Source of the DNA: Syntrophus aciditrophicus | GTDB lineage: Bacteria > Desulfobacterota > Syntrophia > Syntrophales > UBA8958 | DNA length: 48,051 bases | Direction of reading: 5' to 3' | Assembly: GCA_020718905.1 (NCBI GenBank) | Contig: DYRD01000011.1 | Span: 1 to 48,051 of the forward strand | Shown here: positions 5,941-43,035 of the stretch, piece after piece | How positions within the stretch are numbered: the first letter of the stretch is position 1 | Layout of the letters: each line of letters opens with the position of its first letter | Made by a program: the position numbers and the translations under genes | Notes under the pieces: generated by a model | What the model saw: the letters and a program-made list of their open reading frames with translations, nothing else | What the model was told of the DNA's origin: nothing | The model's database searches: none

Positions 5941-7854
5941 ATGAAACATATTGTGCTCGGAACCGCCGGTCATGTGGATCACGGAAAGACTTCCCTGGTC
6001 AAGGCCCTTACGGGCATTGATACGGACCGGTTAAAGGAGGAGAAAGAGCGGGGCATTACCATCGAATTGGGTTTTGCCTCCCTGCGGCTTCCCGGCGGAC
6101 TTACCTTGGGAATCGTGGATGTCCCCGGACACGAACGGTTCATCAAGAACATGGTCGCCGGGGCCTCCGGCGTCGATCTCCTCGTCCTGGTCATTGCCGC
6201 CGATGAAGGGGTAATGCCCCAGACGCGGGAGCACCTGCATATCTGCACCCTCCTGGGAATCAGGAAAGGCTTGGTGGCCCTGACCAAAATCGACATGGTT
6301 GATGAGGACTGGCTTTCCCTGGTCATGGATGACGTGCACGGATACCTCGGGGAGACTTTTCTTGCCGATGCGCCCATCGTTCCCGTTTCGGCGGTAACCG
6401 GGGCCGGATTGGCGGAGCTTGTGCAGGCCCTGGACGACCTGGCGGCGGAGGTGAGGGAGAAGAAGGATCACGGCATCTTTCGCCTGCCCGTGGACCGGGT
6501 CTTCACGATGAGGGGATTCGGGACAGTGGTGACGGGAACCCTGGTTTCCGGAAGCATCGGCGTCGGTGACGACGTGGAGATTCTTCCCTCCCGGTTGAAG
6601 GCTAAAATAAGGAGCATTCAGCTCCATAATCAGGGTGTGGACACGGCCGAAGCCGGTCAGCGGACGGCGATCAATCTTCAGGGGGTGGAAAGGGCCGCCG
6701 TCGAGCGCGGCGAGGTGATGGCGAGACCGGGAACAGTGGAACCTTCCCGGCGTCTCGATGTCGCCCTGGACTACCTGGCAAGCAACGGTAAGGCCCTTAA
6801 AAACAGGAGCCTCGTCCGCTTTCACGTGGGAACGAAAGAGATTATCGGCCGGATCATCCTCCTGGATCGAGAGGAGGTGCGGCCCGGGGAGCGGGCCTAC
6901 GGCCAGATCATCTTCGAGGAACCGACGGTGGTGATGACGGGGGATCACTTTGTCATTCGGAGCTATTCGCCCATTACCACGACGGGGGGCGGGGTGATCC
7001 TCGATACGCTGCCCCGGAAGCACAAACGGATGCAGGCGGCCGTGAACGAAGAATGCCGTCTTCTGGAAGGGGGAACGGAGGAGGAGCGGGTAGCGACCAT
7101 TACCGAGCGGTCCGGATATGAAGGCATCAGTCTCGTTCGTCTCGTCATGCGGACGGGACTTGCGGAAAACCGCCTGCGGAAGCTTATCGAGGCGATGCTC
7201 TCCGTCCGCAAGGCCGTTCTTCTTGATTCCGAATCCTTGGAGATCGTTTCCGCCTCCGTTTATGCCTCTCTTCAAAAACAGGCCCGGGAAGAGGTAAGGG
7301 CCTATCATGGGAAGAATCCCCTCCGGGAAGGCATGCAAAAAGAGGAGTTGCGCATGACCATCGGCGATTTCATCAATACGAAGCTTTTCAACAAGGCCCT
7401 CAAGGATCTGGAAAAACAGGGGAAATTGGCCCTGGAGCGGGAAACGGTCCGACTGCCGGACCATCGGGTCCATCTGCAAGGGGAACTGGAGGCGATGAAG
7501 GGGCAGATCGTGACCCTTTATCTGCAAGGCGGTCTGTCGCCGCCGACGGTTAAGGAGATTTACGGACAGTTTCCCGACCGGAGCCAAGAGGTCGATAACG
7601 TGCGCGCCATCCTGCTCCGCGAGGCGGTACTCGTCAAGATTAACGAAGATCTCATCTATCATCGGGAGAATCTGGACAAGCTACAGGAGGACTACCGGGG
7701 GCTCCTCGTCAGGGACGGCCAGGCAACACCCGTTACCTTCAAGGATCTTACGAACCTGACCAGGAAGTTCATCATTCCCCTGATGGAATATTTCGACCAG
7801 ATCAAAATGACGGTGCGCTCGGGAGACCACCGCATCTTGAGAGAAAAAAGATGA
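5941..7854 (+). CDS. selB: Selenocysteine-specific elongation factor SelB
   Basis: A 637-residue SelB, which delivers Sec-tRNA to UGA codons followed by a SECIS hairpin. The N-terminal GTPase shows G1 [20 protein letters not shown] (G2), [12 protein letters not shown] (G3) and TKIDM (G4). EF-Tu-like beta domains follow ([18 protein letters not shown]). The C-terminal half, from about residue 380, holds winged-helix modules for mRNA binding, ending ITFK-like ([23 protein letters not shown]), typical of SelB. Length is normal. The start is ATG 5941, with the ribosome binding site inside a hairpin. fdhD overlaps its stop by ATGA. No selA or selC is in the window. Confidence 0.95.
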
Positions 7855-8728
7855 TCCTTGACCATTGTAATCGCCCGGAAGGGATCGCAGCATTTCCCGT
7901 CCGGATGTTCACGGGGACGTCCTGGCAGGAGGCGGTGGCGGCTGTTGTTCGGGAGGACCATCTGGAAGTTTTGCTCAACGGGCGGAAAATGATTACCATT
8001 GCCTGTACGGGCCTGCATACGGATGAACTCGCCGTGGGTTGGCTGCGGGGTGAGGGAATCATCCGGACCGCCGGGGAGATAGAATCCGTAGAAGTGGGCC
8101 AGGAAGGAATGTCGATCCATGTCCATACGAGGTCGGGGTTGCCCGGTATCTTTGCCAATGGCGGGACAATCATTTCTTCCAGCGGCGCCCGGAGCGCTGC
8201 CACGGGAATAAAAAGCTCGGGCCGTGAAACACCGCTGTCCGGGGCCCAATCCGGGGAATCAGGATCGGAGGCAGGGGGGGACGAAACATGGCGGCCATGA
8301 AACCCCTCGCAATGGGGGCGGAAACAATCTCGCCGGCAACGGTCTTTATGCTTATGGAGGAAATGGTAACCGCCGCGTGCCTCCATAATCTTTCCCGGGG
8401 GACCCACGGCGCCGCCCTTGCCCATGGCTCCCATGTCTTGGTAATCCGCGAAGATATCGGCAGGCACAACTGTCTGGATATGCTGAGCGGCTATACTCTC
8501 CTCCAGGGCATGGACAGCGCGGATAAAGTTCTTTTGAGGGCCGGACGGGTTTCCTCGGAAATTGTTCACAAGGTTTGGCGGGTGGGCATCCCCGTGGTGT
8601 TATCCCTCTCCGTGCCTACGGCATTGGCGATCAGCCGGGCCGGGCAGGCGGGGATCACCCTCGTGGGGGCCATCCGGGCGCCGTCCCTGACGGTTTACAC
8701 ACATGGGAAACGGATTCGGGAATCATGA
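7851..8728 (+). pseudogene. fdhD: FdhD, formate dehydrogenase sulfurtransferase, frameshifted
   Basis: FdhD passes sulfur from IscS to the molybdenum cofactor of formate dehydrogenase. The first frame (7851 to TGA 8298) holds the N-terminal half (TGLHTDELAVGWLRGEGII). The second frame holds the C-terminal half: GTHGAALA, VIREDIGRHNCLD, GRVSSEIVHKV, SVPTALAISRAGQAGITLVGAI. The shift falls between 8228 and 8298; the 7-G run at 8274-8280 is the likely place, since eight G's would restore one frame. The usual Cys motif of FdhD is replaced by SSSGARSAA, with no Cys. ATGA overlaps join it to selB and to the HD-domain gene. Sequencing error is a real alternative to gene death. Confidence 0.75.
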
Positions 8729-21275: not shown

Positions 21276-22220
21276 TTACAAGGAGGAGGCTGCCTTTAGG
21301 AGGGCTTCCCCGTCACCGACATAAAGGAGGCGCAGGTGCCGATCTATGTTCTTAATCAAACCGGAGAGGACCTTACGGGGACCGATTTCCACAACCGTCC
21401 TAACACCCAGCGCGGTCATTCTTTCCACCGTTTCCTGCCAGCGCACGGGAGAGACCATTTGCCGCTGCAGTAGCTCCCGGGAACAGTCGGGGGAATGAAG
21501 CCGGGAAGGATCATAATTGGGAACGACGGGTATCAGGCAGGGCTGAAAAGCTATTTTTGCCAGATCGCCGCTGAAAAGTTCGGCGGCTTCCCTAAGGAGA
21601 CGCGAGTGGCAGGGGACGCTTATGAGCAGGGGGACAAATTTCTTAATTCCCGCTTCCCTGGCCATCTCTCCCACCCGTTCCACCGCCCGGGCATTTCCCG
21701 AGATGACGATCTGGTTCGGGGCATTGAGGTTGGCCAGATCGAGGAGCTCTCCCGGGAGGGAACATCTCTTGCAGACCTTGACCACGGCCTCGTGATCCAG
21801 GCCCAGGATGGCAGCCATCGCCCCGACGCCGGGAGGCAAAGCTTCCTGGTGCCTGCGGGCCCTCGCCTGGACAATGGCTATGGTTTCTTCAAGCCTAAGC
21901 GAACCTGCCGCATACAGGGCGCTGTATTCACCGAGACTGTGTCCGGCCGCCACGGTCGGAGCGGCGGTGCCGATACGGACATGGGCTTTGAAGAGCTCAT
22001 AGGTGGCCAGCTCAAATGTCAGGACGGCAAGTTGGGTGTGAACGGTCTGATCCAGAACCCCTTGAGGGCCTTCCAGGCAGATCTTGGCGATGTCCATGCC
22101 GGTGACATCCCGGGTTCGGGAAAATACATCCCGAAAGGCTCCGAATTCCTTGAATAAATCGGCGCCCATACCCACATATTGCGAACCCTGACCTGGAAAG
22201 ACCAGCGCCCATTTCTCCAT
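21276..22220 (-). CDS. fabD: Malonyl-CoA:ACP transacylase FabD
   Basis: A 314-residue FabD, which moves malonyl groups from CoA to acyl carrier protein for fatty acid synthesis. N-terminal LVFPGQGSQYVGMG, nucleophile elbow AGHSLGEYSAL (Ser), the conserved Arg in ARARRHQEA, and the catalytic His in ISVPCHSRLL are all present. The end SPVRWQETVERM and VEIGPRKVLSGLIK is typical. It starts 17 nt downstream of the FabH/PhaC chimera. No fabG, acpP or fabF follows; the strand continues into the ctpA unit. Confidence 0.94.
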   Translation of the reverse strand: MEKWALVFPGQGSQYVGMGADLFKEFGAFRDVFSRTRDVTGMDIAKICLEGPQGVLDQTVHTQLAVLTFELATYELFKAHVRIGTAAPTVAAGHSLGEYSALYAAGSLRLEETIAIVQARARRHQEALPPGVGAMAAILGLDHEAVVKVCKRCSLPGELLDLANLNAPNQIVISGNARAVERVGEMAREAGIKKFVPLLISVPCHSRLLREAAELFSGDLAKIAFQPCLIPVVPNYDPSRLHSPDCSRELLQRQMVSPVRWQETVERMTALGVRTVVEIGPRKVLSGLIKNIDRHLRLLYVGDGEALLKAASSL

Positions 22221-22237: not shown

Positions 22238-23962
22238 CTAATTTTCTGTAACGTATTTCCCCGGAGATCTCTCCCGGGGAGGATATTTAACGCATCCCAT
22301 GGTCGGTGGTTTTTTCATGATCGAGCCGCGCTGCACCAGCCAGTCCGTCCAATCCCTCCACCAGGAACCGCGCCTTTCCTCTTGACGGCTCAGCCAGTTG
22401 TCGAGATTCTCCGTGCTCTCGACTTTCCCGGCCCAGAACTTCCTCCTTGACCCCTCCGAATGGGGTTTGATAATACTCGGGATATGCCCTTCGCTGGCAA
22501 GGATATACCGCCGGGGGGCCTTGACCAGGGAGCAGGTGCGGAATGTCCCCCGCCAGGGGCAGATGTGGTCCAGTTGCGCTCCCACGGCGTATAAAGGCTG
22601 GCCGACCCTTTCCATGTCCATGGGCCGATTTCCCAGGGACAGGACGTCCTTTTTTGCCAGATTGTTATGGAGGTAGAATTCCCGCAGATAGAAGGAGCAC
22701 ATCGCTTCCGGCAGACGGGTGCTGTCGCTGTTCCAAGAGAGCAGGTCCGATTTCGGAGGTGTGCCGCCGTAGAGGTAGTTCTGAACGAAGTTTCGCCAGA
22801 TCAGGCTGTCCGAGCCAAGAACTCGGAAGAGCCAGCTCAGATAGCGGGCATCGAGGAAACCGTCCGCTTTCACAATAATCTCGGTTACTTCAATGGATTT
22901 TTCGCTCATGAAAACCCCGAGATCGCCGGGCTCGGAAAAATCAACAAGGGTTGAAAACAGTGTCCAGTCGGCGATGGGCAAATGGCCCTTTGTACCCGCC
23001 CCCCGGTTCAGCCAGGCCATGAAGGCGGCCAGGGCCGTGACGCCGATGCAGTATCCCGCCGCATGTACATAGTAGAGGGCTATGCAGATATGCCGTGCCC
23101 CCTCCACCGCTTTGAGGGTCCCGGAGAACATGTAGTCGGCAAAAGTTACCTCCCGCATGATTGCCGTCGGATTCTTCCAGCTGATAACGAAAACGGTGAA
23201 TCCCTGATCTCTTAGAAAACGTACGAAACTCGTTTGCGGCGTAAGGTCAAAGATGTAGTACTTGTTGATCCAGGGGGGGACCAGCACGATGGGCAGGGCA
23301 TGCGTTGTTGCTGTCGACGCCTCATACTGGATGAGTTCCATCAGGTCGTTGCTGAAGACCACAAATCCCGGCGTTATGGCAATATTCTCAGCTACTTTGA
23401 AAGCCTTTTCATCAGTGATCATGGAGAGATAATCGCCTCGGGAAAAATCTTCGGTGCCTTGCAGCAGCACGGCCCCCGCCCCATCCCCGAAATAGGGAAA
23501 GGTGGAAAAATCCTTGCTGTTGAGAAATCTCGAATAGGCCTCCGCGGCTACGAAAAGGATGTTGCCGTACTGCCCCGATTTCACGAGGACGTCGGCCAGG
23601 TGGAGGCCATAGACGCTTCCCGAACAGACGGAATTGATGTCAAAGGCAAAGGACCTTTTGGCCCCGAGGAGGTGCTGTACTCTGGTGGCTGTGGCCGGTT
23701 GGATGCGGTCGGGAGAAGAGGTCGAAAGGATTATCCCTTCGATGTCTGCCGGGAGAAAATCGATCTTTTCCAGGCAGGTCCGGACCGCCTCCAGGGCCAG
23801 ATCGGAGGTGCACTGGTTTTCCCCGGCGTGGTGTCGCGCCAAGACGCCGGTCTTCTTGCCGATCAGGGACCGGGCTTCCCGGGAAAACTGCAGGAGGTCT
23901 TCGTTCGGGATGATTTTTCCCGGCAAGTAGGATCCTGTGGAAGCAATGAAGGCCCTTGTCAT
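22238..23962 (-). CDS. Chimera: N-terminal half of FabH (KAS III) fused in frame to C-terminal two-thirds of PHA synthase PhaC
   Basis: One uninterrupted 574-codon frame. Residues 1 to about 170 are FabH-like: GSYLPGKIIPNEDL, the active-site Cys113 in INSVCSGSVYGL and YFGDGAGAVLL. The FabH His/Asn catalytic half is missing. From about 176 the sequence switches to class I PHA synthase: TDEKAFKVAENIAITPG, IVLVPPWINKYYIFDL, the nucleophile Cys305 in GYCIGVT (family GYCIGGT, so Val replaces Gly), Asp465 in AQLDHICPW, His493 in SEGHIPSII, and the GSWW..W.DWL tail. The PhaC N-terminal ~190 residues are missing. An in-frame deletion of adjacent fabH and phaC genes, or a misassembly, would give this. 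fabD follows. Confidence 0.8.
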   Translation of the reverse strand: MTRAFIASTGSYLPGKIIPNEDLLQFSREARSLIGKKTGVLARHHAGENQCTSDLALEAVRTCLEKIDFLPADIEGIILSTSSPDRIQPATATRVQHLLGAKRSFAFDINSVCSGSVYGLHLADVLVKSGQYGNILFVAAEAYSRFLNSKDFSTFPYFGDGAGAVLLQGTEDFSRGDYLSMITDEKAFKVAENIAITPGFVVFSNDLMELIQYEASTATTHALPIVLVPPWINKYYIFDLTPQTSFVRFLRDQGFTVFVISWKNPTAIMREVTFADYMFSGTLKAVEGARHICIALYYVHAAGYCIGVTALAAFMAWLNRGAGTKGHLPIADWTLFSTLVDFSEPGDLGVFMSEKSIEVTEIIVKADGFLDARYLSWLFRVLGSDSLIWRNFVQNYLYGGTPPKSDLLSWNSDSTRLPEAMCSFYLREFYLHNNLAKKDVLSLGNRPMDMERVGQPLYAVGAQLDHICPWRGTFRTCSLVKAPRRYILASEGHIPSIIKPHSEGSRRKFWAGKVESTENLDNWLSRQEERRGSWWRDWTDWLVQRGSIMKKPPTMGCVKYPPRERSPGKYVTEN

Positions 23963-24083: not shown

Positions 24084-25394
24084 TCAGGAAGATGCCTTTG
24101 TGGAACTCAGCAATACCTTGTCGATCCGGTTGCCGTCCATGTACACGATTTCGAAACGCCAGTCTTCCCAGGAAAAATGGTCGCCCGTAACGGGTATGCG
24201 TTCCAGAAAGGACATGATGAAGCCGCCAAGGGTGTGAAAGTCGCCCTTTTCTTCGGCGGGAAGCCCCTCGATATGGAAATGGGTTTTAAAATCTTCAACG
24301 GACAAGGCGCCGTCCACGAACCAGGAACCGTCCTCTCGCTGGACGATGGGATTTCCATCCTCCTCGCTGATCGAGGGAATATCGCCCACAATAGCCTGAA
24401 TTACATCGCTGATGGTCACCATCCCCTGAATGATTCCATATTCATCAACCACCAAGGCGATGTGGATGGGGGAGGTCTTGAATTGTGCGAGGACCTGCCA
24501 GGCGGAGATTGTTTCCGGGAAACAAAGGGGTTTTTTCAGCAGGGGGATCATGTCCAGTTCCCCTGCCCCCGTTGCGGCGACTTGTTTTAAAAGATCCTTG
24601 ACATGGAGAAATCCGATGACCTGATCAAGACTTTCCCTGCCTACGGGGAAGCAGGTGTGTTGGCCCGACCTGATGATCTCCAGATTGTAGGGAAAGTCCT
24701 TTCCCGCATCCAGCCAGAGAATATCCGGCCGGGGCGTCATCAGATCCCTGACCCCCAGTTCGTCGATATGAAAGGCCCGGTGGCAGATCTCATGTTCCAT
24801 GGCATGAAAAATACCGGCCTCCGCTCCTTCTTCAAGGAGGACCTTCACTTCCTCCTCGGACACGGAACTCTCCGACTTCTCGATGCGGAGTGCCTTCAAG
24901 AACAGTTCGGTGCTGACATTTAGGAGCCAGACAAGGGGGTAGGTGACGATGGACAGGTAATATACGGGAAAGGCTGCCAATGAGGCGATCCTCTCCGCTC
25001 TGAAAAGGGCCAGGCGTTTGGGGACAAGTTCTCCCAGGACAAGAGACAGATAGGTGATCACCAGGACCACGAGGGCAAGTCCCAACGGCTCGCTGTAAGG
25101 ATGGAAAATTGAAAATTGCTGCAGATAAACGCTTAGAGACTTTGCGATAGTTACACCGCCATAGGCCCCGGACAGGATACCGATGAGGGTGATGCCGATC
25201 TGGATGGCGGAGAGGAAACTCCCCGGTTCCTCCGCTATGCTAAGGGCCTTCTCCGCCCCTGTATCCCCGCTTTCCGCATCGACCCTCAGCTTGGCCTTGC
25301 GCGAGGAAACCAGGGCCATCTCCGCCATGGATAGGACCCCGTTAAGGAGCACGAGCAGCAGCAGGACAATGGCCTCAACAGACAAAGACGGCAT
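24084..25394 (-). CDS. CNNM/CorC-HlyC family membrane protein with CBS pair
   Basis: A 436-residue protein of the UPF0053 family. An N-terminal CNNM membrane domain (residues 1 to about 180) has SMAEMALVSSRKAKL and LSAIQIGITLIGILSGAYGG. Two CBS domains follow (VRDLMTPRPDILWLDAG, then PETISAWQVLAQFKTSPIHIALVVDEYGIIQGMVTISDVIQAI), and a CorC/HlyC transporter-associated domain (GSWFVDGALSVEDFKTHF, FHTLGGFIM). Members are linked to Mg/Co efflux; 'hemolysin' names are historical. Downstream of lexA on the same strand but about 390 nt away. Confidence 0.88.
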   Translation of the reverse strand: MPSLSVEAIVLLLLVLLNGVLSMAEMALVSSRKAKLRVDAESGDTGAEKALSIAEEPGSFLSAIQIGITLIGILSGAYGGVTIAKSLSVYLQQFSIFHPYSEPLGLALVVLVITYLSLVLGELVPKRLALFRAERIASLAAFPVYYLSIVTYPLVWLLNVSTELFLKALRIEKSESSVSEEEVKVLLEEGAEAGIFHAMEHEICHRAFHIDELGVRDLMTPRPDILWLDAGKDFPYNLEIIRSGQHTCFPVGRESLDQVIGFLHVKDLLKQVAATGAGELDMIPLLKKPLCFPETISAWQVLAQFKTSPIHIALVVDEYGIIQGMVTISDVIQAIVGDIPSISEEDGNPIVQREDGSWFVDGALSVEDFKTHFHIEGLPAEEKGDFHTLGGFIMSFLERIPVTGDHFSWEDWRFEIVYMDGNRIDKVLLSSTKASS

Positions 25395-29335: not shown

Positions 29336-34715
<5,380 letters not shown>

Positions 34716-34725
<10 letters not shown>

Positions 34726-35960
34726 GCCGGTATTAAGGAAAAGATGCGTTCGGCAACGTCGTCAACAATTGACTGCAGCCAGGCGACGCCGAGATTTACG
34801 GCTGCCGGGTCGAGGTTCCGGATGCAAGAGGTGTAGTCCATCCCCTTGCCCGTATAATTCTTCTCAATGATGTTTTGCAGGGTTTGTCTATTAGCGGGTT
34901 CGATATCCGCTTCCCTGCCGCTCGTCAAGGAGGCCTCAATGGCCGGCCAGTTTTCCATGAATTCCCGTGATTGCCGGATCAGGACGTCCCGCCGCTCTCC
35001 GGCCAGGATTTTTTCACTGATCCTGAGCGAGGTCTCCATCTTTTCCGAGAGGGCGCGGAAGCGGACGATCCTTTCCTGAATGATCAGATCCAGCTTTTCC
35101 ACGGCTCCTTCGTAAAGGGCGCCGTCGCCTGTCGCCATGAAAAAAGGCCGCCGGATGTAATCGTACCACTGCCGGAGGGCGAGAATGTTGGCGATGTAAA
35201 GAATATTATTGCAGATACGCCGTTTAATGTCGGCGTAAAAGCCCAGGTGAAAGCTGATTTCGTAAGTCATTTGGCCCTGTTGACCGATCAGCTTGCCTCC
35301 TTCCGGGCAATCACCCCGGTAGACGGTGCCGGCGGCAATGACGGTTCCGTATCCGATCCGGACCGGTCCGACGATCCCCCCCTGGCCACCCAGAAAAATG
35401 GGGGCCTGGTTCAGCATGACTCCCCGGGGGATGTCGCCGATCAGGGAAGCCGTGGCCTTATCCTGATTGGGAGTGTAGTTGAAATGGATGTAAGAGCTGC
35501 CTACCTCGCTGTGGTTCCGGCGGCTCGTCCCCCCGGCCACCAGGCAGTCGCAGCAATTGATCAGGCTGCCGAGAGTGACGAAGGGAAACAGGATGGTCTG
35601 TTTCATCCCGACCGTATGGGCGCCGTTGGCTTCTTCTTCCATAAGACAACCTTCACGGAGCTGGGCGTTGCTGCCCATACTGGCGTTTGCTAAAAATGTC
35701 GAGGCCGTATAGAACCCGCCTTTAAGTTCCACATGGGGTCCCAGTTGACAATTGACTACGGTTACGGGGGCTTCGCGGCCCAGCTTGACCCCCCTGGCAA
35801 TATATGTCTTTTCACCATAAATCCTTGTCCCTGCGAAAAAAGACACCCCGGCGCCGGCAATCCTCTCCGTAGCGACCTCTTCGCCAATATCCACCATTTC
35901 TGGATTGGGAATGGAGGCCCCTTTTTCGAGAAGCTGAATGATTTTAGATCGATCGGTCAT
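34716..35960 (-). CDS. Left-handed beta-helix (hexapeptide) protein, GlmU/UDP-GlcNAc pyrophosphorylase-related
   Basis: A 414-residue protein. Residues about 30-240 show the hexapeptide periodicity of left-handed beta-helix acyltransferases (ARGVKLGREAPVTVVNCQLGPHVELKGGFY, ANASMGSNAQLREGCLM, VGPVRIGYGTVIAAGTVYRG). The rest is helical. The N-terminal nucleotidyltransferase domain of GlmU is absent. Adjacency to the GlmS-like gene (10-nt overlap) and to glmM suggests work on GlcNAc or a related sugar, but no reaction is proven by sequence. Confidence 0.6.
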
Positions 35961-37422: not shown

Positions 37423-38796
37423 ATGATCGTCAAAATCTTCGGTAGTTCCGTTATCGGCATCGAGGCCTACCTGATTGACGTTGAAGTGGATACCTCGCCG
37501 GGATTGCCCCAATTCTCAACGGTAGGGCTCCCCGATGTCGCCGTGCGGGAGAGTCGGGACCGGATCAAGGCGGCGGTAAAAAATTCCGGCTATCCCTTTC
37601 CCCGGCATCATGTCACCGTCAATCTTGCCCCGACGGATATAAAAAAGGAGGGCACCGGTTTTGACCTTCCCATTGCGGCAGGCATCCTGGCGGCGGCAGG
37701 CGTCATTGGACCGGAAATGTTTCACAATTATATCCTCCTGGGGGAGCTTTCTCTAAACGGGAGAATCAAGGGGGTGTACGGGGCCTTGCAGGCTCAGGAG
37801 GCGGGGTTGCGGGGGATCATCCTGTCTCGGGAAAATGCCTCGGAAGCGGCGATGGTTCATGGCATTGAAGTCATCCCGGTGGAAAGCCTCGTGGAGGTAG
37901 TGGAGTTTTTGAATGGCGCCCGGAGGATCGAACCGGCGCGACTGGATGGGGAGGCGATGTTTCAGGGCTCCTGTCATGAAGACTACGATTTCCGGGATGT
38001 CCAGGGACAGGATCAGGCCAAGCGGGCAATGGAGATCGCCGCTGCCGGGATGCATAATCTTTTGATGCTCGGGCCCCCGGGGAGCGGGAAGACAATGCTT
38101 GCCCGGCGCCGGACTCATCGGCGGCCGCCAGATTCCCAAACCGGGAGAGATCAGCCTGGCCCATCATGGTGTTATTTTTCTTGATGAATTGCCGGAATTC
38201 CGGAAGAATGTCCTGGAGGCCCTGCGGCAGCCCCTGGAAGAGGGGACGGTGACGATTGCCCGTTCGGCCATGACGGTGACCTGCCCGGCGCGTTTTCTTT
38301 TCGTGGCGGCAATGAATCCTTGCCCTTGCGGGTACTATGGCGCTGCCCATCGCCCTTGCCGTTGCAGTTCCCAGCAGATCCGCCAGTATCAGGGAAGGGT
38401 TTCCGGGCCGCTCCTGGGCCGGATCGATCTCCACATCGAGGTTCCCGCCTTGCGTTATCGCGAATTGGCGGCCGTTACGAGGGGGAGGCCTCGGAGACCA
38501 TCAGAGGAAGGATCGGCGGGGCCCGCATCATTCAGCAGGCGCGTTTCGGTGCCCGGGTGGCGCCCTTCAACGCCCGGATGTCCGACGGAGAGATCAAACG
38601 CTATTGCGAGATCGACAGGGAGTCCCAGAAATTGATGGAAATGGTCATGGAGAAGCTGGGGCTGAGCGCCCGGGCCTACAAACGAATTCTGAAGGTGGCC
38701 AGGACGATCGCCGACCTCGATGGCCGGGCGTCCATCCAGACTTCCCATGTAGCCGAAGCCATTCAGTGTAGAAGTCTTGATAGAAAGCTTGTTTAG
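37423..38796 (+). pseudogene. comM: ComM/YifB Mg-chelatase-like AAA ATPase, deletion plus frameshift
   Basis: ComM-family helicases act in branch migration during natural transformation. Three frames together give the family order. Residues 1-230 from 37423 ([35 protein letters not shown]) end in Walker [14 protein letters not shown]. The second frame starts [21 protein letters not shown] with Walker B FLDELPEF. The third has RIIQQARF and GLSARAYKRILKVARTIADL. Around 38101-38112 the protein jumps from Walker A to the AGLIGG motif, losing about 40 residues and changing frame. A second shift of one base lies near 38464-38474. It cannot make a working ATPase as written. Confidence 0.85.
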
Positions 38797-40921: not shown

Positions 40922-40955
40922 GTCCCCGAAAAAATGGGGGAAGATGGGAGAAACT

Positions 40956-43035
40956 ATGAAGGTTCTGGAAATAGCCCACCTTGATGCCGGCCCCGTGACC
41001 TCACGGGTTGGGGAATCGAATCATCACCCTGCCCTCCGTAGAGAATGGCTCGACGTCAATGGCCGGGGAGGGTATGCGTCCAGCACCCTGCTGAACTGCC
41101 ACACCCGCAAGTACCACGGTCTCCTCGTTTCCCGGCTTGCTGCGCCCCCCGGGCGCTATATCCTCCTGTCCAAATTTGAAGATACCTTTTCCTGCGGGAC
41201 TCGTCAGTACCCTTTGACCTGCCATCAGTATCCTCAAAGCTTCTTTCCCGAAGGCTATCGCTTGCTGAAAACATTTCAGCAGGATGTGTGCCCCGTATTT
41301 ATTTATGAAGGGGAGGGCGTGCGCATCCGTAAATCTCTGATGATGGTGGGGGAAGAGGATTGTCTGCTGGTTCGCTACGATCTCGATGCCTGTCCCGCCC
41401 CGGGAGTCCTGCGCCTGCTGCCTTTTCTGGCTTTCCGGGATTATCATCGCCTGAGCCGGGAAAATTCTTTCCTCCGGGGGAAAACCTTAACCGTTAAAAA
41501 TGGTTTTTCCATCCGTCCTTACGCCGGGATGCCCCCCCCTCGTCATCCAGACGAATATCAAACCGGACTGGCGAGAGCAGCCCTTATGGTACCATGCCTT
41601 TGAATATGCCGAGGAAGCTGTCCGGGGCTATGAGCATCATGAGGACCTCTTTTGCCCCGGCATGCTTGAGATTCCCTTGCGGCAAGGTAAAACGATAATA
41701 GTTTCGGCATCTCCGGTTCCTTTCTATGGCCGCCTGAGGAAGAAGTGGGACGACGAGGAGCGCCGGCGGCGAAAGCTCGCGGAGAAGGACGGAGTAATAG
41801 CCGGGACCTTGAGCAGGGCGGCGTCGGAGTTTCCTGCGGGGGATCGGACTGAAGCGGGCGCAACGATTTCACCGGATGCGCGAGAAACACCCGATCTGAT
41901 CCGGTTGCTGTTCCGGGCGGGACGGCAGTTTCCCGTCCGGATCCCGGAGGGACGTCCGGCGGTTATCGCCGGTTATCCCTGGTTTGGGGAATGGGGCCGG
42001 GATACCCTGATCTCCCTGCCGGGACTTGCCTTCTGCTCCGGCCGCATCCGGGAAGGGACAGACATCCTGATGCATTTGACAAAATTCGAACGGCAGGGAC
42101 TCCTTCCCAATGTCTTTTCCGAGGAAGACACGCATCATGCCTACAACACCGTGGACGCTCCCCTCTGGTATTTCTGGGCCGTTCAACAGTTTCTGCAGTA
42201 TACGGACGGTAACGAAACCATCGTAGCGAAAAGCATCTGGCCGGCCCTGAAAAACATCCTTCGCCAGTTCCTCCATGGGACCATCTTCAATATCTACATG
42301 AACGACAACGGCCTCCTCCATGCCGGCGCCGAAGGCCGGGCGCTGACCTGGATGGATGCCTGCATCGACAACCGGCCCGTAACCCCCCGCTACGGATATC
42401 CCGTCGAAATCAATGCCCTCTGGTACAATGCCGTCTCTTTCGCTGCCGAGTTGGCTGACCGTTTCGGAGATGGGGAGTTCTACTTTCCTGCCCTGATTCC
42501 CCGGATCCGCCAGTCCTTTCAGAAAACATTCTGGATCGAGGCAGGGGGGTATCTCGGGGATGTTTACCATTCCGGTTACCTGGACCGCTCCGTCCGCCCG
42601 AATCAGCTTTTTGCCGTTTCCCTGCCCTACTCGCCCCTGGATACCCATCAGGGGCGCCGGGTGATTAATAAGGTGCGGGATGAACTGCTTACCCCGGTGG
42701 GTCTCCGCACCCTTTCTCCCCGGGACCCCGAGTACCGGGGGTGCTGCGAAGGCCCCCCGGCCGCACGGGATGGGGCCTACCACGAGGGGACGGTCTGGCC
42801 GTGGCTCCTCGGTCATTACGGCGAGGCCTGGCTCAAGGTCGCCGCCGACCGGGAGGAGGCAAAGACATCGCTGCGTCTGTACCTGCGGACATTCCTGCGC
42901 CGCCATTTCAGGGAGGCGGGTGTCGGCTGCGTCTCCGAGATCTTCGACGGGGACGCACCCCACCGGCCGGGGGGCTGTATCTCTCAGGCCTGGAGTGTGG
43001 CGGAGCTGATCCGCCTCTATACCCTCATCCGATAA
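40956..43035 (+). pseudogene. Amylo-alpha-1,6-glucosidase/glycogen debranching enzyme, frameshifted
   Basis: The first frame (from ATG 40956, GGGAG upstream) holds the N-terminal domain: REWLDVNGRGGYASSTLLNCHTRKYHGLLV, a signature of the archaeal-type debranching family. After an 8-C run (41532-41539) the frame is lost; with seven C's it continues into LVIQTNIKPDW and the GH133/GDE_C catalytic domain (GYPWFGEWGRDTLISLPGL, NTVDAPLWYFWAVQQFL, LTWMDACIDNRPVTPRYGYPVEINALWYNA, DGAYHEGTVWPWLLGHYGEAWL). Together about 692 codons, the normal length. Either a homopolymer sequencing error or a young pseudogene. Confidence 0.85.

Follow-up and report, generated by a model that had tools for sequence, protein, structure and literature searches.

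One open reading frame of 574 amino acids (22238..23962, minus strand) in the 48,051-nucleotide stretch of Syntrophus aciditrophicus DNA analysed here, referred to as the window, joins the N-terminal half of a ketoacyl-ACP synthase III (KAS III, FabH) to the catalytic domain of a class I PHA synthase (PhaC). We consider this frame to be probably the relic of a recent in-frame deletion in a genome whose PHA storage is being lost. Since the relatives carry two separate genes and all three PHA synthases of the genome (the fused class I enzyme, a second class I and a class III enzyme) are damaged, the frame is most likely a recent product of decay and not a new enzyme.

Composition of the fused reading frame

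The initial annotation had described a single frame that runs from FabH into class I PhaC and switches near residue 170-180. The NCBIfam, Pfam and PDB matches agree with this description. In NCBIfam, residues 2-172 align with positions 3-173 of 322 of the FabH model (E 3e-47) and residues 170-572 with positions 134-531 of 532 of the class I PHA synthase model (E 7e-127), and both matches are far beyond chance. The same split is given by Pfam and by sequence matches to the solved FabH and PhaC structures, and the join lies within residues 171-176.

The FabH half (residues 1-170; 23453..23962, minus strand) is 82-83% identical in amino-acid sequence to the intact FabH of three congeners. It keeps the catalytic cysteine as residue 113 and, as had also been noted before, is without the half that bears His and Asn, the profile match ending at position 173. 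KAS III enzymes have a Cys-His-Asn set in a two-half thiolase fold, of which the fused frame possesses Cys113 only, and its score against NF006829 is 161.2 bits at a cut-off of 249 bits. Condensation by KAS III needs the half of the thiolase fold that carries His and Asn. Since this part is missing, no acyl condensation is expected, and the fusion product should be devoid of KAS III activity.

The PhaC half (22241..23434, minus strand) comprises the complete alpha/beta-hydrolase catalytic (CAT) domain from about residue 177, as judged from profile and structure matches, and a residue check found all three members of the proposed triad, C305, D465 and H493. The N-terminal domain, which in class I PHA synthases stabilises the dimer, is absent, and FabH residues precede position 134 of the TIGR01838 profile. 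At the nucleophile, where class I synthases have G-x-C-x-G-G, the frame reads G-Y-C-I-G-V. The initial annotation was right in reporting a Gly to Val exchange, but had placed it in the lipase box; the pentapeptide G-x-C-x-G is intact and the changed residue follows it (V308, codon GTC; 23039..23041, minus strand). Glycine occupies this position in 88 of the 88 other PhaC relatives bearing the pentapeptide, a count that leaves out nine divergent relatives which do not have it.

Modelling of the junction, as had been suggested, was carried out with AlphaFold. Both halves fold in the model: the PhaC fold is kept with a pLDDT mostly above 90 and the FabH half is folded with moderate confidence, while the linker at the join, residues 172-176, has a pLDDT below 50. 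Using this model in Foldseek, full-length and CAT-domain PhaC entries rank first and FabH entries after them.

The intact tandem in relatives and the proposed deletion

A separate FabH gene is present in six of the seven congeners. The initial annotation had pointed to relatives as the place to look for intact fabH and phaC beside fabD, and in five congeners (G002, G003, G005, G006 and G007) the two genes indeed lie at the same locus as separate tandem frames on the same strand, with fabD downstream; in G001 the fabH end and the phaC end sit on separate contigs. A tandem of separate fabH and phaC genes was moreover found in about 15 genomes of the order, plus further MAGs. Because it recurs in this way, the separate arrangement is, by parsimony, presumably ancestral.

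The search for the same fusion in other genomes, likewise proposed earlier, returned none: not in 40 relatives, not in the other genomes of the family (all 11 examined), not among 155 genomes of the order, of which 26 gave a strong match, and not at the loci from a pattern scan of GTDB r220, which holds one genome per species for about 85,000 species. The titles listed by a literature search combining FabH with PhaC gave no natural fusion. Two candidates were rejected. A Roseinatronobacter plasmid matched over 97% of the query, but separate searches with the two halves gave PhaC and no FabH on it. The 1096-codon PhaC frame of genome G109 merely runs through an overlapping upstream gene.

Alignment to the tandem congeners demonstrated that the fused locus is shorter by 1206-1209 bp. 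One in-frame deletion spanning adjacent fabH and phaC genes had been postulated from the sequence; the congener tandems support such an event, although it is larger than the approximately 1 kb then assumed. The congener alignments of fabH and phaC share 18 bp at the junction (23435..23452, minus strand), and this segment corresponds to an imperfect direct repeat, which in G007 reads GATGATTCTTCCCGAGGC in fabH and GATGACTTTTCCCGGGGC in phaC. In the congeners the exact runs within the repeat are about 6-7 bases long. A short imperfect repeat at a join may be taken as the usual signature of slippage or of a short-homology deletion. Neither the missing 1.2-kb piece nor an intact copy was found on any other contig when the assembly was searched. 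The fused locus hence combines intact separate genes in relatives with absence of the deleted piece, the pattern of a fusion made by deletion.

In the course of events that we propose, an ancestral fabH-phaC tandem lay upstream of fabD, and a deletion of about 1.2 kb would have arisen between the imperfect direct repeats of about 18 bp, by replication slippage or short-homology recombination. The C-terminal FabH half, which bears the catalytic His and Asn, would thereby have been lost together with the spacer and the PhaC N-terminal domain, the frame being kept by chance. Since a frame survives such an event with a chance of one in three, an open frame alone does not point to selection. One reason for the persistence of the in-frame join may be that translation into fabD (21276..22220, minus strand), which is intact and lies 17 bp downstream, would be undisturbed. 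On the upstream side, the neighbouring gene for a CNNM/CorC-type transporter (24084..25394, minus strand) is syntenic in the congeners. A second fabD is located on contig C193 of the same genome, beside a full-length KAS III in which both Pfam halves are present; the loss of fabH at the fused locus is therefore tolerable and need not be lethal.

It is conceivable that the population mostly carries intact fabH and phaC, and that the contig was joined at the short repeat or derives from a minor variant with the deletion. We regard such an assembly or strain-mixture artefact, of which the initial annotation had already named the assembly join, as unlikely, even though the genome is a draft in 319 contigs with a contamination estimate of 3% and several further indels occur in the same window, those of 1 bp, for example in a C7/C8 run, being possible sequence errors. 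The repeat is imperfect, its exact runs are well under the usual assembly k-mer sizes, and no other contig carries the missing 1.2 kb. Moreover, the second class I phaC and comM have separate deletions of other sizes, and congener G003 is otherwise largely colinear with the window over about 37 kb.

Broken genes and the expected activity of the fusion product

The second class I phaC of the fusion genome (G000:C248:74940-75419) has suffered an internal deletion of about 1.3 kb and a frameshift, leaving about 65 residues of the N-terminus, followed out of frame by about 78 of the C-terminus; in G001, G002, G003 and G005 the gene is intact. The class III phaC (G000:C250, about 34582-35872), intact in G001, G003 and G007, is interrupted by an in-frame stop near codon 28 and frameshifted at residue 66.

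Further broken genes were observed in the window. A comM/YifB-like Mg-chelatase gene (37423-38793) shows a 143-bp deletion and a 1-bp loss compared with two congeners. The gene for a glycogen debranching enzyme (40929-43032) is split by an extra C at 41532, in the C7/C8 run, relative to G003, which either concerns carbon storage again or is a sequence error. The fdhD gene (7686-8725) is frameshifted near 8250-8285 compared with G007. Sequence errors could account for some of the 1-bp changes, but not for the larger deletions. On contig C66 of congener G003, in the part matching 7866-8667 of the window, a deletion of about 800 bp has fused the beginning of fdhD with the gene that follows, which encodes OB/HD domains. 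The result is one frame of 395 codons with an overlap of 6-7 bp at the deletion ends, apparently a parallel case of a fusion made by deletion.

At 397 sites that are invariant in five congeners, the PhaC half has 22 replacements unique to the fusion genome, G308V included; the corresponding counts for comparison genes of this genome are 8 of 311 sites in FabD and 9 of 447 in an S41 protease. On the fusion lineage, omega of the PhaC half was 0.20 with six taxa (background 0.11) and 0.17 with three taxa. For the FabH half, omega was 0.42 with six taxa (background 0.07), where omega = 1 was not rejected, and 0.19 with three taxa, where it was rejected. Omega is weakly raised in either half; it also rises in the flanking CNNM gene, which the two halves do not clearly exceed.

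Two observations speak against a relic. Both halves still show purifying selection over the whole branch of the fusion genome, and decay is not visible as neutral evolution; in addition, neither the CAT domain nor any of the three PhaC catalytic residues has been lost, and both halves are folded in the AlphaFold model. However, plainly broken genes of the same genome are also at low omega (class III phaC 0.10, comM 0.17). Breakage is therefore recent and the branch test has little power, and the low omega that the fused frame shares with these genes fits recent breakage.

When a class I PhaC was extensively truncated at its N-terminus, PHA accumulation was almost abolished, and with the first 103 residues removed the amount of PHA did not suffice for analysis (PMC10867992). 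For the PhaC dimer, the N-terminal domain has been described as important (PMC5509742). Without this domain and with Val beside the nucleophile elbow, the fusion product is expected to show hardly any PHA synthase activity, or none. This argues against a residual PHA synthase, in which the CAT domain would be active and the FabH half would replace the N-terminal domain, perhaps dimerising via its thiolase-fold interface. The complete CAT domain with Cys-Asp-His, the high pLDDT of its modelled fold, with a low-confidence linker at the join, and an omega of the PhaC half well under 1 would be in line with it; yet we hold it to be very unlikely, given also that this architecture was seen in no other genome searched and that the remaining PHA synthases of the genome are broken. 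A working enzyme born from one deletion, with half a thiolase fold from FabH as its N-terminal dimerisation domain, appears still less probable. A new bifunctional or regulatory protein, which had been put forward earlier and would couple fatty-acid initiation with PHA synthesis, is hardly credible, because FabH has lost His, Asn and half its fold and PhaC its N-terminal domain, the junction displays no sign of structural adaptation and the fusion occurs once among the 155 genomes of the order, despite the one long frame with Cys113 and the PhaC triad and the fact that fabH and phaC adjoin each other and fabD in relatives.

A recent deletion relic hence remains the best reading. It had been among those of the initial annotation, as a relic that kept PhaC; the first part fits best, while the retention of PhaC is doubtful in view of G308V, the absent N-terminal domain and the other broken synthases.

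Significance and comparison with known systems

As a relic, the locus would be one more gene fusion made by short-repeat deletion and would mark a Syntrophus-like lineage in which PHA storage is being lost. It is also a warning that a fused frame with all its catalytic residues can be debris, and that one has to judge by the arrangement in relatives and the state of the paralogues. A working protein would mean that an unrelated fold can take the place of the PhaC N-terminal domain.

The closest counterpart is the fabH-phaC-fabD tandem of Syntrophus-like MAGs (for example UBA8958 and GL140_4_metabat_222), which has neighbours, order and strand in common with the fused locus and 82-85% amino-acid identity to it in both halves, whereas it consists of two full-length genes and is 1.2 kb longer. 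With FabH (TIGR00747 / NF006829) the fusion has in common the N-terminal half with the catalytic Cys113, but not the C-terminal half that bears His and Asn. With the class I PHA synthases (TIGR01838), such as those of Cupriavidus necator, Chromobacterium sp. USM2 and Aeromonas caviae, it shares the whole catalytic domain, Cys-Asp-His and G-x-C-x-G; it differs from them in having half of a FabH for the N-terminal domain and Val after the pentapeptide, and it scores 424 bits where the family cut-off is 623.
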